A DNA stretch of 6,746 nucleotides, from assembly GCA_018664265.1 (NCBI GenBank), contig JABJOR010000155.1, positions 1 through 6,746 of the forward strand. Direction: 5' to 3'. The position numbers were made by a program, and so were the translations under genes. The notes under the pieces are model-generated. The model had not been told where the DNA came from. It ran no database searches and saw only the letters and a list, made by a program, of their open reading frames with translations. Of this stretch, positions 980 through 6,450 are shown in pieces (the first letter of the stretch is position 1; the number at the start of each line of letters is the position of its first letter). This stretch comes from Rhodospirillales bacterium. GTDB taxonomy: Bacteria > Pseudomonadota > Alphaproteobacteria > Rhodospirillales > Casp-alpha2.

Positions 980-2424
980 AGAGCCTCCACATCCAGATGT
1001 TGTTCCATGGCCTCAGCGAGATCATCAAGGGCTTCTGTTACCCTGTTGCCATAGTGCATTTCCCGGTGCTCGCCAGATCGAAACGGTGCGAGGAAACTGG
1101 CCCGGAAGGTATCATCTTCAAACATGCCATGGACGTACCCACCCATCACAGACCCATCAGGGGACGTAGCCCCGATGTTACGCCCATCAACTTGAAAGAA
1201 GGGACGTTCTTCAACATCTACGCCCGTGGTATCCCCGACATGGATTTCATAACCCGTTGCACTACAGCCAAGTGTCGGGCATTGGGCTTGTGTTCGACGA
1301 ACCGTCTTATCCGGTGTCATCAAGGTAGCTATATTCAGCATCCCCAAACCATCCATACATTGCGCCGGCCCATCGACACCATCCGGGTCATCGATTTTGC
1401 TGCCCAGCATCTGATAGCCTCCGCAAATGCCAAGGATGCGCCCACCTCTGCGATGATGGGCGGCGAGATCAATGTCCCAGCCTTGCGCCCGGAAGAATGC
1501 CATATCGGCTGTGGTTGATTTGGTGCCGGGTATCAACACCAACTGGGCATCACCGGGCAAAGGTTGACCCGGTGGAATAAATTGAACGGTAACATCGGCT
1601 TCCGCCTGTAAAGGATCAACATCATCAAAATTGGCGATGCGAGACAGCATGGGCACAGCGATCAGTATGCCGCCTTTAGCTGTATCTTGTGCGTGATCAA
1701 GAGCAACCGCATCTTCGGCAGGCAGGCTGCGAACGGCTGGCACATGTGGCAGTACGCCAAAAGATTTCCAACTTGTTCGATCAACAATGGCTTTCACACC
1801 ATCATCGAACAGGCTTAAATCTCCACGGAATTTGTTGATCAGGAAACCGCAGATCAAATCCCGTTCATTGTCTTGCAGTAATCCATGGGTTCCCACGATT
1901 GAGGCAATAACCCCGCCGCGATCAATATCACCGATTAAGACCACAGGCGTTTGGGTGGCTGTGGCAAATCCCATGTTGGCAATGTCACCAGCCCGCAGGT
2001 TAATTTCAGCCGGGCTGCCAGCGCCTTCAACCAACACTATGTCGGCCTGCGCTTTCAGAATTTCAAAGCTCTCAATAACGGTATTAAGCAACGTCTGACG
2101 GTGCTCACGGTAATAGCTGGCACCAGCCGTTCCGGTTGCTTTGCCGCGAACCACGACTTGCGCCCCCACATCAGATTGCGGCTTTAACAACACAGGATTC
2201 ATATGGACGCTGAGGTCTACGCCACAGGCAATGGCTTGCAAGGCTTGCGCACGACCAATTTCCCCACCATCCGGGGTGACGGCTGCATTGTTGGACATAT
2301 TTTGTGGCTTGAAGGGAAGAACGCGATGACCGCGCCGCGTGAAAACCCGGCACAGTCCGGCAACGATCACGGACTTTCCCACATCAGAACCAGTCCCTTG
2401 AAACATCAGAGTTCGCGCAGTCAT
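958..2424 (-). CDS. cobQ: Cobyric acid synthase, glutamine-hydrolysing
   Basis: Cytoplasmic enzyme that amidates four carboxylates (b, d, e, g) of adenosylcobyrinic acid a,c-diamide, using ATP and glutamine. It has 488 residues, normal for the family. The N-terminal dethiobiotin-synthetase-like ATPase half opens with the P-loop GTGSDVGKS (10-18), followed by KPQNMSNNA (39-47), VEGAGSPAEINL (132-143) and GDIDRGGV (165-172). The C-terminal class I-like glutamine amidotransferase half has nucleophile Cys334 in GICGGYQMLG, plus GYEIHVG (391-397) and YVHGMF with His432. All key residues are present. The ATG overlaps the folA stop codon as ATGA and is preceded by GGGAG at 8-base spacing, which points to translational coupling with folA. 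The next gene, cobD, acts later in the same pathway. No cobalamin riboswitch lies directly before it. The call is firm. Confidence 0.97.
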   Translation of the reverse strand: MTARTLMFQGTGSDVGKSVIVAGLCRVFTRRGHRVLPFKPQNMSNNAAVTPDGGEIGRAQALQAIACGVDLSVHMNPVLLKPQSDVGAQVVVRGKATGTAGASYYREHRQTLLNTVIESFEILKAQADIVLVEGAGSPAEINLRAGDIANMGFATATQTPVVLIGDIDRGGVIASIVGTHGLLQDNERDLICGFLINKFRGDLSLFDDGVKAIVDRTSWKSFGVLPHVPAVRSLPAEDAVALDHAQDTAKGGILIAVPMLSRIANFDDVDPLQAEADVTVQFIPPGQPLPGDAQLVLIPGTKSTTADMAFFRAQGWDIDLAAHHRRGGRILGICGGYQMLGSKIDDPDGVDGPAQCMDGLGMLNIATLMTPDKTVRRTQAQCPTLGCSATGYEIHVGDTTGVDVEERPFFQVDGRNIGATSPDGSVMGGYVHGMFEDDTFRASFLAPFRSGEHREMHYGNRVTEALDDLAEAMEQHLDVEALWESMSN

Positions 2425-2930
2425 TTAAGTTGCTCCCGATCAAGAACAACGAAGCTGATATCGGGTTGCCCCGGCGTTTCGCCAGCACCCTTCTCGCGCG
2501 ATTGCTCGATCCATTGGCTTATTGGCAGCTCAGGAAAAGTTGTGTCGCCATCAATGCTTGCATGAATTTCCGTCAGATAAACCCGCTCGGCATAGTGCAA
2601 AGCTTCCGCGTAAATTTGCCCTCCGCCAATAATCATAACTTCATCGACATCAGGCGAAGCAATCGTTTGAGCAAGCTCAAGGGCATCAGACACGCTGCTA
2701 ACCACCTGCACTCCGTCAGCCGCAAAACTTGCGTCCCGGGTGATCACAATATTTGGTCTTTTCGGCAAAGGCCTGCCAATGGACTCAAACGTTTTTCGCC
2801 CCATGACAACAGGCTTGCCAAGGGTGGTTTTCTTGAAATATTTCAAATCTTCCGGTAAATGCCACGGCATACCGCCATCACGACCAATAACGCGATTGCT
2901 TGCCATGGCAACGATTAAGGAAACCCGCAT
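2421..2930 (-). CDS. folA: Dihydrofolate reductase
   Basis: Reduces dihydrofolate to tetrahydrofolate with NADPH, regenerating the folate oxidised by ThyA just upstream. From the chosen start there are 169 residues, beginning MRVSLIVAMASNRVIG. The family pattern is clear: MPWHLPEDLKYFKK (21-34) contains the catalytic acid Asp28 (Asp27 in E. coli), then GKPVVMGRKTFESIG for cofactor binding, RPNIVITRD, EVMIIGGGQIYAEAL and the late strand segment VYLTEIHASIDGDTTFPE. I chose the ATG at 2930 because it aligns with the canonical family N-terminus and has GGA/AGGG purine stretches upstream. An in-frame ATG at 2948, 7 bases after the thyA stop, would add six residues but has no clear ribosome site. 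A longer frame reaching 3032 would run into thyA and is unlikely. The 3' end overlaps cobQ (ATGA). Family call certain; start moderately sure. Confidence 0.95.
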   Translation of the reverse strand: MRVSLIVAMASNRVIGRDGGMPWHLPEDLKYFKKTTLGKPVVMGRKTFESIGRPLPKRPNIVITRDASFAADGVQVVSSVSDALELAQTIASPDVDEVMIIGGGQIYAEALHYAERVYLTEIHASIDGDTTFPELPISQWIEQSREKGAGETPGQPDISFVVLDREQLK

Positions 2931-2955
2931 ACCCTGTCCATCCGTCATAATGTGA

Positions 2956-3750
2956 TCAAACCGCAATCGGGGCCGCAATATGCGGATGGGATTCGTAGCC
3001 TTGCAAATCAAAGTCTTCGTAGCGGAAGGCAAACAAGTCCTTCACATCCGGGTTAATCTGCATGGTTGGAAGCGTCAGCGGCGCGCGGGGGATTTGCAAG
3101 TCGGCTTGTTCATCGTGGTTATTATAAAGATGCACATCCCCGAACGTATGAACAAAGTCTCCGGCTTCCAGCCCGCAGACTTGCGCTATCATCATGGTGA
3201 ACAGGGCGTAGGACGCTATATTAAAAGGCACGCCAAGAAACACATCGGCACTGCGCTGATAGAGCTGACAGGACAGCTTTCCTTCGGCCACATAAAACTG
3301 AAACAGGCAGTGACAGGGCGGCAATGCCATACTGTCCACATAGGCAACATTCCAGGCACAGACAATATGGCGGCGTGAATTGGGATTGTTGCGAATCTGT
3401 TCCAGCAACTGGCTGATCTGATCCACATGACCACCATCAGGCGTTGGCCAGGATCGCCACTGATATCCATAGACAGGACCAAGGTCACCTTTTTCGTCTG
3501 CCCAGTCATCCCAAATTGAAACACCGTTATCTTTCAGGTACTTAATATTGGTATCACCTGAAATAAACCATAATAATTCATGAATGATAGAGCGCAAATG
3601 CAGCTTTTTAGTGGTCAGCACAGGAAAGCCTTCTGACAAATCAAACCGCATTTGATGCCCAAAAACGCTCCGGGTCCCTGTCCCTGTACGATCCCCACGC
3701 TGGGTTCCTGTATCACGGACAAGTTTTAATAAATCGAGGTATTGGCGCAT
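2956..3750 (-). CDS. thyA: Thymidylate synthase (ThyA type)
   Basis: Makes dTMP from dUMP using 5,10-methylene-tetrahydrofolate, which is oxidised to dihydrofolate. It has 264 residues, the same length as the E. coli enzyme, and residues align without gaps at the active site: Arg21 in RGDRTGTGT, nucleophile Cys146 in [11 protein letters not shown], Arg166 and Asp169 in QRSADV, Asn177 in PFNIASYA, and His207/Tyr209 in DVHLYNNH. The C-terminus ends PIAV, as expected. The usual RRIIVSAWN segment reads RRHIVCAWN here, a mild variant. It is the first gene of the minus-strand operon and lies 25 bases before the preferred folA start. Only a weak purine stretch (GGAAAA, about 10 bases upstream) is visible as a ribosome site. 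Its promoter must lie between 3751 and about 3900. The call is certain. Confidence 0.98.
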
Positions 3751-3816: not shown

Positions 3817-3869
3817 CCCTAAAATCAATTCATATAGAATAAAAGTGATGAGAATATTACAGCGAGTTC

Positions 3870-3898
3870 TTTCCATAAGCCTCCAATTTTTCTATAGT
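3870..3898 (+). promoter_or_regulatory. Candidate ssrA promoter
   Basis: TATAGT at 3893-3898 matches TATAAT at five of six bases. TTTCCA at 3870-3875 matches TTGACA at four of six, with a 17-base spacer. Transcription would start near 3904-3906, right at the first hairpin of the ssrA acceptor piece, which supports the assignment. Confidence 0.5.
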
Positions 3899-3903
3899 GG
3901 AGA

Positions 3904-3984
3904 TGTTGGGTAACCAACTATGGCGATAAACGCTGTTCGAAATAAGCATAGTGGACCCGGGGGCGGTACCCGGCGCCTCCACCA
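3904..3984 (+). other. tmRNA acceptor piece
   Basis: The 3' tRNA-like half of the tmRNA. It begins with a 5-bp hairpin, GTTGG/CCAAC (3905-3909 with 3914-3918), closed by a GTAA tetraloop of the GNRA class. It ends with the T-arm, the acceptor strand and an encoded CCA (3982-3984). The T-loop reads GGCGGTA rather than the usual TTCGAAT. The 5' end is approximate. Confidence 0.75.
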
Positions 3985-4015
3985 ATTTCCCAAATTCGTT
4001 TGGAAAATTGATTAA
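3985..4015 (+). other. Intervening segment of the ssrA precursor
   Basis: This links the CCA end of the acceptor piece to the 5' end of the coding piece and is expected to be cut out. It folds into a hairpin: CCAAA/TTTGG (3990-3994 with 3999-4003) around a TTCG tetraloop, extended by AATTT/AAATT (3984-3988 with 4005-4009) across one C-A mismatch. This would hold the two halves together before processing. Confidence 0.7.
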
Positions 4016-4180
4016 GGGGGCGAAATAGGATCGACACGTGTAGTAAAGGTACAGTTTTTGCCCGGCATGATTCCGCCGTTACCGGGTCAATTTTATAAAT
4101 GCAAACGATAATGATGCATTTGCGGTAGCTGCATAGCACTACCACGGGGTTCGGGAGGCACCTTGCAACAGAAGCCTCCC
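4016..4180 (+). other. tmRNA coding piece
   Basis: The 5' half of the tmRNA. It starts with the acceptor 5' strand GGGGGCG and the D-loop-like stretch ending GGATCGACACG. A pseudoknot-like stem CCCGG/CCGGG (4061-4065 with 4082-4086) stands before the tag, and its loop could pair GATT (4069-4072) with AATT (4089-4092). After the tag stop there is a 7-bp stem GGGAGGC/GCCTCCC (4153-4159 with 4174-4180). I take that stem as the approximate 3' end. Confidence 0.75.
4101..4136 (+). other. tmRNA tag reading frame (ANDNDAFAVAA, stop)
   Basis: Resume codon GCA at 4101-4103, then AAC GAT AAT GAT GCA TTT GCG GTA GCT GCA and stop TAG at 4134-4136. The encoded tag is ANDNDAFAVAA. The ANDN start fits family tags, and the terminal VAA fits recognition by ClpX. 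Eleven encoded residues is shorter than the tag known from Caulobacter. Confidence 0.9.
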
Positions 4181-4183
4181 ACT

Positions 4184-4205
4184 TAATCTGGGAAAGATCA
4201 GATTA
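4184..4205 (+). other. Inverted repeat after ssrA
   Basis: TAATCTG (4184-4190) and CAGATTA (4199-4205) form a 7-bp stem with an 8-base loop directly after the last tmRNA stem. There is no T-run, so it is not a typical terminator. It may mark the 3' processing boundary or weakly slow transcription before sspB. Confidence 0.4.
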
Positions 4206-4243
4206 TAGGACACGAAGAACAATGAAGGAAGATCGGCCAAAGC

Positions 4244-4774
4244 ATGGAAATAGACGCAAATGATCCAATACGATATGACCAATGGATAGAAGACGCTCTG
4301 CGTGATGTTATCCGTAAAGCACTGATTTATACCGCCGAAAATGGTCTTATTGGTGAGCACCACTTTTACATCACTTTCCGTACAAACTCTGATCTCGTTT
4401 CCATCCCCCCCCATATGCTCGCTCAGCACCCTGAGGAAATGACCATTGTCCTGCAACACCAGTTTAATAACCTGCAAGTTACAGATGAAGGTTTTTCAGT
4501 AACACTCCGGTTCAGTGGCAGAGCTGAAAATCTTTCAATTCCATTCAGTGAGCTTACAGGTTTCAGTGATCCATCCGTGAATTTTGGATTACAGCTTAAG
4601 ACCACAGAAATGACTGAAGCCGATATCGAAGATCTGGACTTCCCGGTTGAGCCCCCCGATAAAGATCAGGAATTTTCAATCCCTGGCGAAGAGCAAGCAT
4701 CTGATACTTCCGATACCTCAGTAGAAACCAAAACCGGCGAAGTTATCGCCCTTGATGCTTTTCGGAAAAAATAA
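4244..4774 (+). CDS. sspB: ClpXP adaptor SspB, alphaproteobacterial type
   Basis: Adaptor that binds the ssrA tag and delivers tagged proteins to the ClpXP protease in the cytoplasm. In its 176 residues a folded domain (about 8-119) carries the family blocks HFYITFRT (40-47), HPEEMTIVLQHQF (62-74), GFSVTLRFSGR (83-93), LSIPFSELTGFSDPSVNFGLQL (97-118). A long acidic, Ser/Thr-rich linker (120-165) follows, and the tail GEVIALDAFRKK (165-176) is the expected ClpX-docking peptide. No other in-frame start exists, because a stop lies at 4223. The ribosome site AAGGAAG (4225-4231) sits about 12 bases before the ATG, a rather long gap. It follows ssrA by 63 bases, so the tag RNA and its adaptor are neighbours. 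Codons 54-57 lie in a run of eight C (4405-4412). Family call firm from motif order and tail. Confidence 0.93.
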   Translation: MEIDANDPIRYDQWIEDALRDVIRKALIYTAENGLIGEHHFYITFRTNSDLVSIPPHMLAQHPEEMTIVLQHQFNNLQVTDEGFSVTLRFSGRAENLSIPFSELTGFSDPSVNFGLQLKTTEMTEADIEDLDFPVEPPDKDQEFSIPGEEQASDTSDTSVETKTGEVIALDAFRKK

Positions 4775-4830: not shown

Positions 4831-6450
4831 ATGAGCGAATTTGTTCACCACGAAATGTTCCCTCTTTCCGGTGAAGAGCCGGAATATCGTCTTTTAACCA
4901 CGGATTACGTCAAAACCATTGAAGTCGATGGTCAGGAAATTTTAAAAGTCGACAGCAAAGCTCTGTCACTGCTCAGTGCAACGGCCATGCATGACATCGC
5001 CCATCTGCTGCGCCCAGCACATTTAGAACAACTTGCATCTATCCTTGATGATCCGGAAGCATCCGACAATGACAGGTTTGTCGCTATTGATTTGCTGAAA
5101 AATGCAAATATCTCAGCTGGTGGCGTTCTACCTATGTGTCAGGACACAGGAACAGCCATCGTCATGGGTAAAAAAGGCCAGAACGTCTGGACGTCTGCTA
5201 GTGACGAAGCCGCTCTTTCCGAAGGTATTGAGAAAACGTATCTGGAAACCAATCTCCGTTATAGCCAGCTTGCGCCACTGGATATGTATAAAGAAGTCAA
5301 CACAGGCAATAATCTGCCAGCGCAGATTGATCTCTATGCGACAGAAGGCAATGCTTACAAGTTTTTGTTTATGGCCAAAGGTGGTGGCTCGGCAAATAAA
5401 ACTTTCCTGTATCAGCAAACCAAAGCATTGCTGAATCCCGACACATTGATGAAATTTCTTGATAACAATATTCGCTCACTCGGCACGGCAGCCTGCCCAC
5501 CTTATCATCTGGCAATTGTTATTGGCGGCACCTCGGCCGAGCAAAATTTAAAAACCGTAAAAATGGCCAGTGCTCACTATCTTGATGGCCTGCCCACAGA
5601 AGGCAACGAACACGGGCAGGCTTTCCGTGATCTGGATCTTGAAGCTGCCGTACATGAAATGAGCCAAAAGATGGGTCTAGGCGCACAATTTGGCGGCAAG
5701 TACTTCTGCCATGATGTTCGTGTGATACGTCTGCCACGTCATGGCGCATCCTGCCCGGTTGGCATCGGGGTTTCCTGTTCTGCAGACCGTCAATGTTTGG
5801 GCAAGATTACCAAAGATGGGGTCTTCATTGAACAGTTAGAGGCCAATCCAGCGCGGTTCTTGCCTGAAGTTGGTGGAGAAGAGTTGAATACCGATGTGGT
5901 TGATATTGATCTAAACAAGCCAATGGGTGAAATTCTTGATACCCTCAATCGCTACCCGGTTAAAACGCGCCTTAACCTGAGCGGGCCACTAATCGTTGCA
6001 CGTGACATTGCCCACGCTAAGCTAAAAGAGCGTTTGGACGGCGGTGAAGACTTACCGGATTATTTCAAAAATCATGCAATTTATTATGCCGGCCCCGCCA
6101 AAACACCGGAAGGATTTGCTTCAGGGTCGTTCGGTCCTACCACAGCCGGACGCATGGACGCCTACGTTGATCAATTTCAGGCTGCTGGCGGCTCCATGGT
6201 CATGCTTGCAAAAGGCAACCGTTCTGACGCCGTAACCGGAGCCTGTATTGCCCATGGCGGGTTTTACCTGGGCTCCATTGGCGGCCCCGGTGCTCGCGTT
6301 GCACAGGATTGCATCAAGAACGTGGAAGTCGTCGAATATGCAGAATTGGGCATGGAAGCCATATGGAAGATTGAAGTCGAAAACTTCCCGGCCTTCATCG
6401 TGATTGATAACAAGGGCAATGATTTTTTCAAAGAGTTCATGCCAAAATAA
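4831..6450 (+). CDS. fumA: Fumarate hydratase, class I (iron-sulfur)
   Basis: Converts fumarate to L-malate in the citric acid cycle with a [4Fe-4S] cluster. At 539 residues it is close to E. coli FumA (548). The three cluster ligands are in place: Cys103 in PMCQDTGT, Cys222 in AACPPYH and Cys316 in GVSCSADR, each two residues before the E. coli positions. Other strong matches are [12 protein letters not shown] (180-191), [19 protein letters not shown] (293-311), [17 protein letters not shown] (385-401), [24 protein letters not shown] (420-443), KGNRS (461-465) and [11 protein letters not shown] (476-486). The N-terminal alpha domain and C-terminal beta domain are fused in one chain. An AGGA at 4823-4826 lies 4 bases before the ATG. 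sspB ends 56 bases upstream, and the next gene starts 20 bases downstream, so it is likely co-transcribed with that gene. The call is certain at family level; the symbol follows E. coli usage. Confidence 0.97.

Follow-up and report, generated by a model that had tools for sequence, protein, structure and literature searches.

The tmRNA gene ssrA and the gene of the adaptor SspB stand next to each other, in the same order and on the same strand, across much of the Alphaproteobacteria. The two products act on the same tag, tmRNA as its writer and SspB as its reader, as is known for their families (PMC3985003). In the Rhodospirillales sequence analysed here (6,746 nucleotides, hereafter the window) the genes are separated by 63 bases. 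We put at roughly 55% the probability that sspB is transcribed by read-through from the ssrA promoter and that the tmRNA pieces are cut from the shared precursor, an arrangement in which one promoter would supply both products.

Layout of the window

Read from left to right, the minus strand of the window carries cbiB, cobQ, folA and thyA; the plus strand after thyA carries ssrA, sspB, a fumarase gene and the start of a YbjQ-family gene. The features that bear on the argument are the following:

2421-2939, minus strand: folA, behind thyA in the window
2956-3750, minus strand: thyA, the divergent upstream neighbour
3866-4183, plus strand: ssrA, a permuted (two-piece) tmRNA gene, in its Rfam extent, which takes in the promoter-like region
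3870-3898, plus strand: promoter-like site of ssrA, TTTCCA, 17 nt, TATAGT, a consensus match only (9/12)
3905-3984, plus strand: predicted acceptor (tRNA-like) piece with CCA end, placed by eye from the RF01849 structure line and the sequence
4016-4183, plus strand: predicted coding piece, from GGGGGCG through the tag to the 3' hairpin, placed by eye from the RF01849 alignment and the sequence
4101-4136, plus strand: tag reading frame, ANDNDAFAVAA followed by a stop, from the ARAGORN coding part 213-248 with the gene start at 3889
4153-4180, plus strand: 3' hairpin of ssrA, GGGAGGC stem and 14-nt loop, from the fold and the class comparison
4181-4243, plus strand: gap of 63 bases from the ssrA hairpin to sspB, T-poor after the hairpin and with no promoter-like site
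4244-4774, plus strand: sspB, adaptor gene, 176 aa, from a PF04386 match, its ClpXP delivery role being taken from the family
4831-6450, plus strand: fumarase gene with Fumerase and Fumerase_C domains, a frequent next neighbour in the window's order

The tmRNA gene and its adaptor gene

The alphaproteobacterial tmRNA model RF01849 (alpha_tmRNA) matches positions 3866-4183 of the plus strand with 272.2 bits (E 4e-79; gathering score 50) over model positions 1-355, and RF04321 also matches this ssrA, with 163.2 bits. ARAGORN reports a permuted tmRNA with the tag ANDNDAFAVAA at 3889-4227, its 3' end lying beyond that of Rfam. Taken together, Rfam and ARAGORN give an order in which the acceptor piece with its CCA comes first and the coding piece with an ANDN-type tag follows. 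By these matches the window's ssrA is a permuted two-piece tmRNA of the alphaproteobacterial kind, and its processing into two pieces is predicted. Two stable RNAs arising from tmRNA processing have been reported in S. meliloti, where the acceptor piece measures 82 nt (PMC2873474). A consensus scan of the window found six sites like the one before ssrA (9/12), while shuffles average 8.1. This promoter-like stretch is itself covered by the RF01849 model, in which positions 1-39 form no pairs and include UAUAUU.

Tag lengths and endings differ across the class, as seen in L060, L048, L064 and other relatives (examples are ANDNFAGTARLAA, ANDNTEALAVAA and ANDNVDMSEVAVAA), and this alphaproteobacterial tag variation could be set against variation in SspB. 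One genome of the same order holds a second, partial RF01849 match (G038:C67:3140-3393), possibly a second or broken tmRNA gene.

The open reading frame at 4244-4774 on the plus strand matches PF04386 with 140.9 bits against a cut-off of 27. The sequence relatives of the window's SspB with solved structures are 2nys (AGR_C_3712p; E 3.8e-35), 2qas and 2qaz (E 1e-27). The C-terminal tail is of the LDAFRKK type, which we take to be ClpX-binding, and its residues L170, D171, F173 and R174 are invariant among 22 aligned sequences. The presumed role of the protein, binding of the tag and delivery to ClpXP, is that of its family. By eye, a 13-codon ATG frame at 4222-4263 was seen to overlap the start of sspB in another frame.

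Linkage within and outside the class

The class survey comprised 190 genomes, of which 176 had an RF01849 match and 168 a PF04386 match, and linkage was counted in the 130 genomes with both matches among the 150 listed for each family. In 109 of them, sspB lies on the same strand downstream of ssrA at less than 5 kb: 75 at less than 150 bases, 23 at 150-1000 bases and 11 at 1-5 kb, all distances being taken from the Rfam match to the Pfam match, which overstates the real gap. Since the same order within 5 kb recurs in so many of the genomes surveyed, we conclude that it is not due to chance; the arrangement is widespread in the Alphaproteobacteria, and much of the class probably inherited it from a common ancestor. 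The original prediction had proposed a survey of this kind, naming a lack of linkage in most alphaproteobacteria as the outcome that would speak against it, and what the survey returned is linkage in most of them. The remaining 21 of the 130 are unlinked: nine have both genes on the same contig but otherwise placed (in two, sspB is about 8 kb downstream), and 12 have them on different contigs, at least two of these (G104 and G139) with ssrA at a contig end.

Outside the class but within the same phylum, a standard tmRNA scored over the cut-off in 66 genomes, 63 of which also had an SspB match, two of the 63 matches lying below the family cut-off. None of these 63 genomes shows the two genes adjacent: 13 have both on one contig at a distance of at least 164 kb, and 50 have them on different contigs; many of the 63 come from few families, which makes the contrast a broad rather than a finely sampled one. 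The belief behind the original prediction, that the two genes are usually apart, agrees with the genomes outside the class but not with those inside it.

An SspB-anchored set of named genomes consisted of the best 80 of 572 candidates and in part overlapped the survey. ARAGORN found a same-strand tmRNA upstream in 65 of these 80, the 3' hairpin motif alone was present in six more, and neither was found in the DNA at hand for the other nine. The set spans Rhodospirillales, Hyphomicrobiales, Sneathiella, Parvibaculum, Magnetospirillum, Inquilinus, Methylobacterium and Brevundimonas. In Pelagibacter the two genes are not neighbours: its tmRNA is listed with thyX on one side and a COG4696 gene on the other, both encoded on the opposite strand (PMC2704228). 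The window and Pelagibacter both have a thymidylate synthase gene beside the tmRNA gene, divergent thyA in the former and thyX, on the opposite strand, in the latter (PMC2704228).

How the pair fares relative to its outer neighbours was counted around 100 ssrA-anchored loci, one per family, with at least eight further families with listed matches (G186-G197) left out. Counts refer to the loci with enough flank, 88 for both sides and 65 for the long downstream side, and the window's own proteins were the sole queries for thyA and fumarase. Within 1.5 kb downstream of ssrA, sspB is present at 67 of the 88 loci, and a divergent thyA lies within 1.5 kb upstream at 17. Put differently, 53 loci have sspB without a divergent upstream thyA, six have thyA without sspB, 14 have both and 15 neither. 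Fumarase follows sspB at 22 of the 65 linked class loci with enough downstream flank. By these counts the ssrA-sspB pair is more lasting than its surroundings, an argument that something keeps the two genes together.

The 3' hairpin of ssrA

The stretch 4150-4183 folds with -15.1 kcal/mol (z -3.55). Near the end of the Rfam match, the loop string AACAGAA is found at 100 of 100 class loci, picked by coordinate alone, and a stem of at least seven pairs at 77 of 100, compared with 15 of 100 after shuffling; moreover, stem pairs change type across relatives in a comparison of 34 distinct hairpins. The conserved loop, the excess of stems and the pair-type changes together lead us to conclude that the hairpin is real. 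The table of pair types, drawn from 115 of 183 hairpins picked for an unbroken 7-pair stem with G[C/G]AACAGAA as search string, is partly circular and informs only through its pair-type changes and the other loop columns. In the consensus structure of RF01849, the conserved hairpin positions (window 4153-4180) are unpaired. One relative (L034, from G007) carries a damaged tandem second copy of the ssrA 3' end after the intact one, within the ssrA-sspB gap.

As an intrinsic terminator, that is, a G+C-rich hairpin with an immediate T run, the end of the window's ssrA has the hairpin but not the run: the T-tract after it is poor, only ACTTAATCTGGG, and a terminator scan of the window listed no plus-strand site after ssrA.

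The gap before sspB in the window and its closest relatives

From the hairpin end at 4180 to the sspB ATG at 4244 there are 63 bases, in agreement with the distance of about 63 first proposed. The gap (4181-4243) contains an AAGGA stretch resembling a ribosome site, weak and distant, and none at the usual spacing. In the hairpin plus gap, the best match to the sigma-70 consensus reaches 6/12, and 200 of 200 shuffles (60 of 60 in a repeat) do as well or better; a leaderless -10-like box was not found before the window's sspB.

Four relatives with gaps of 75-83 bases (L219, L039, L040 and L224) all lack the leaderless box. The same-genus relative L219 has a 9/12 promoter-like match in its gap of 82 bases, equalled in 11 of 200 shuffles (3 of 60 in a repeat), and the other three have no promoter-like match better than shuffles. 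A possible terminator or regulator in the window's gap, a second hairpin (TAATCTG...CAGATTA, 4184-4205), was dropped: the fold of 4180-4250 has a z of -1.40, 20 of 200 shuffles are as good, no T run follows, and by eye the hairpin was not found in L219.

Two gap designs across relatives

The gap set consisted of 239 sequences (238 loci and the window). Removal of 24 with no SspB match or recognisable start and of 16 more with no hairpin motif left 199, and removal of equal upstream ends left 183 distinct loci, in which the sspB start codons were chosen by rule. Their hairpin-to-start gaps range from 11 to about 3,700 bases, with 17 loci at 30 bases or less, 46 at 45 or less and 77 at 65 or less. 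Very short gaps also occur in named species, 29 bases in Paramagnetospirillum kuznetsovii and 30 in Alsobacter metallidurans.

Short and wide gaps differ in what precedes sspB. A leaderless -10-like box at -12/-13 of the start occurs at 2 of the 77 loci with gaps up to 65 bases and at 35 of the 106 wider ones. A -10 box with its TA at -12 would direct transcription to begin at the start codon itself, on its first base; TA exactly there is found in 13/38 loci with gaps above 150 bases, 9/53 at 81-150, 7/46 at 46-80 and 3/46 at 45 or less. When the window's family and order are taken out, the leaderless contrast reads 1/68 versus 10/73 (p 0.009, in a set hand-drawn by locus number); the loci are related, so that this and the other p value given here are too small and serve as guides only. 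Gaps of at least 250 bases are evenly divided, with the box present in 14 of 28 and absent in 14. Many of these 28 gaps contain open frames. Integration scars were considered as the origin of wide gaps, but a search of the 28 with two hairpin strings gave no recurrence.

At the other extreme, a gap of 30 bases or less, with starts as chosen, means that any sigma-70 promoter would extend into the ssrA hairpin; at these 17 tightest loci, a start at the first conserved tyrosine would still leave only 32-66 bases. The sigma-70 scan at p 0.05 picked out 0/46, 1/31, 3/68 and 4/38 loci from the tightest to the widest gaps. As it rarely finds a site even in wide gaps, its silence in the window lends mild support only.

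Two further candidate markers were considered. The eight bases after the hairpin hold on average 2.98 T at loci without the box (gap 12-100, n=109) and 4.38 at loci with it (n=37; p 2e-4), a difference in favour of read-through, yet 18 of the 46 tight loci have at least five T there, and as a clean sign of a terminated ssrA the T-tract is weak. Ribosome-site matches exceed shuffles in tight and wide gaps alike (20/46 in the tightest against 4.7 shuffled, 17/38 in the wide against 6.1) and were left unused as a marker of co-transcription.

Because the leaderless box is almost absent where the gap measures 65 bases or less, sspB is probably carried on the ssrA transcript at such loci, to which the window belongs. 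The -10-like box is commoner where the gap is wider, and we therefore consider it likely that sspB often has its own leaderless promoter there. Co-transcription is probably not universal in the class.

Read-through and its alternatives

What the sequence itself shows is that the genes are adjacent, that this is conserved, that the hairpin exists and that gaps come in two kinds; what we infer is read-through, processing and co-regulation. The ssrA promoter would drive one transcript that runs on into sspB 63 bases downstream, and the tmRNA pieces are predicted to be cut out of this shared ssrA-sspB precursor. In short-gap lineages, the supply of tag writer and tag reader would then be set by one promoter, and the ssrA hairpin, with or without a T-tract, would decide which fraction of transcripts reaches sspB. 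Lineages in which DNA was inserted between the two genes are likely often to have provided sspB with its own leaderless promoter, and the pair was kept while the genes on both sides came and went. Shared transcription, as the original prediction suggested, appears the best reading for the window, because a promoter-like site precedes ssrA, none is visible in the gap and the T-tract is poor; the unusualness it attached to the arrangement does not hold inside the class, where 109 of 130 genomes are linked.

A more far-reaching version can be put forward tentatively, at somewhat less than even odds. Across much of the Alphaproteobacteria, the adaptor's own mRNA would begin with the tmRNA, which would then be excised; one promoter would serve both, the conserved 3' hairpin would act as a cut or as a partial stop and in this way fix the ratio of the two, and sspB would have received a leaderless promoter in lineages whose genes were separated.

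Several observations weigh against read-through. The same-genus relative has its 9/12 match, termination is possible at the 18 of 46 tight loci that are T-rich, 14 of the 28 gaps of at least 250 bases lack the box, 21 of 130 genomes are unlinked and the gene downstream in Pelagibacter is a different one. Some of these points suit an explanation that we regard as rather unlikely, namely that the gene order is inherited, ssrA is fully terminated and sspB has a promoter in the gap or in the 3' end of ssrA that the scan does not see. The scan does miss promoters at most wide-gap loci, and the leaderless-placed box at 35 of 106 loci with gaps above 65 bases, the T-rich stretches after the hairpin and the L219 match all speak for it; the window's own gap offers TATAGG (4204-4209) with CTTAATC (4182-4188), a poor but possible promoter. 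Set against this, every one of the 200 shuffles of the window's hairpin and gap scores as good or better, gaps of 11-30 bases (17/183 loci) leave no room for a promoter outside the hairpin, and the pair is kept far more than either outer neighbour, which plain inheritance of gene order does not predict.

Linkage might instead be kept for a reason other than transcription, for instance if mobile elements or replication position fix ssrA in place and sspB simply stays beside it. tmRNA genes are known integration sites (PMC11476347; PMC11915505), and L034, with its damaged repeat of the ssrA 3' end between the two genes, would fit such a history; integration at that end would, however, split the pair, which lies within 150 bases in 75 of 130 genomes, and other neighbours are lost, so that we consider this explanation improbable. 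Least probable of all, and in our view very unlikely, is that read-through transcripts exist as a mere by-product of incomplete termination and are no useful source of SspB. The weak T-tract (ACTTAATCTGGG) after the window's hairpin and the lack of a well-spaced ribosome site before sspB would agree with it, but no other sspB promoter is visible, and sspB is intact and conserved.

Relation to known systems

Tagging and delivery should match, as protease capacity would be wasted if there were tags but no adaptor for them, or adaptor but no tags. That the pair is common in one class and adjacent in 0/63 genomes of the phylum outside it suggests that alphaproteobacteria may use shared transcription to keep the two in step, and how the levels of tmRNA and SspB are balanced could then be read from the transcripts of species with tight gaps.

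In the sspA-sspB operon of gamma- and betaproteobacteria, sspB comes after sspA. This operon involves the same adaptor family (PF04386), and in none of the 63 genomes of the phylum outside the class does ssrA adjoin sspB. In E. coli, smpB lies upstream of ssrA. The smpB-ssrA arrangement of E. coli and others resembles the present one in that ssrA adjoins a gene whose protein is its partner in trans-translation (PMC2245857), but the partner is SmpB instead of SspB; in S. meliloti, an alphaproteobacterium, smpB and the tmRNA gene are 1.1 Mb apart (PMC2245857). In 2007 the S. meliloti tmRNA gene was reported to be among three small RNA genes whose neighbours on both sides are conserved in alphaproteobacteria, and the authors regarded functional association as uncertain (PMC2245857). 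The main text of that report contains no occurrence of sspB; a statement of the ssrA-sspB adjacency was likewise not found in the literature searched, which consisted of passages and mostly excluded subscription journals. The linkage described here may explain the conserved tmRNA context reported for S. meliloti (PMC2245857).

The closest parallel is the ssrS-ygfA unit of gammaproteobacteria, in which the gene of a stable non-coding RNA, 6S RNA, is followed by the protein gene ygfA in a conserved bi-cistronic arrangement (PMC2848244). By the survey and the gap set, ssrA and sspB likewise share a strand, lie a short gap apart and are conserved across many families. The two cases differ in what is established: for ssrS-ygfA, the published account gives co-transcription and calls the connection of the two products unclear (PMC2848244), whereas for ssrA-sspB the link between the products is known for their families and co-transcription is inferred. 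By this analogy, the nearest known design is the ssrS-ygfA unit, and we would file ssrA-sspB as a variant of that kind with a putative spanning transcript.
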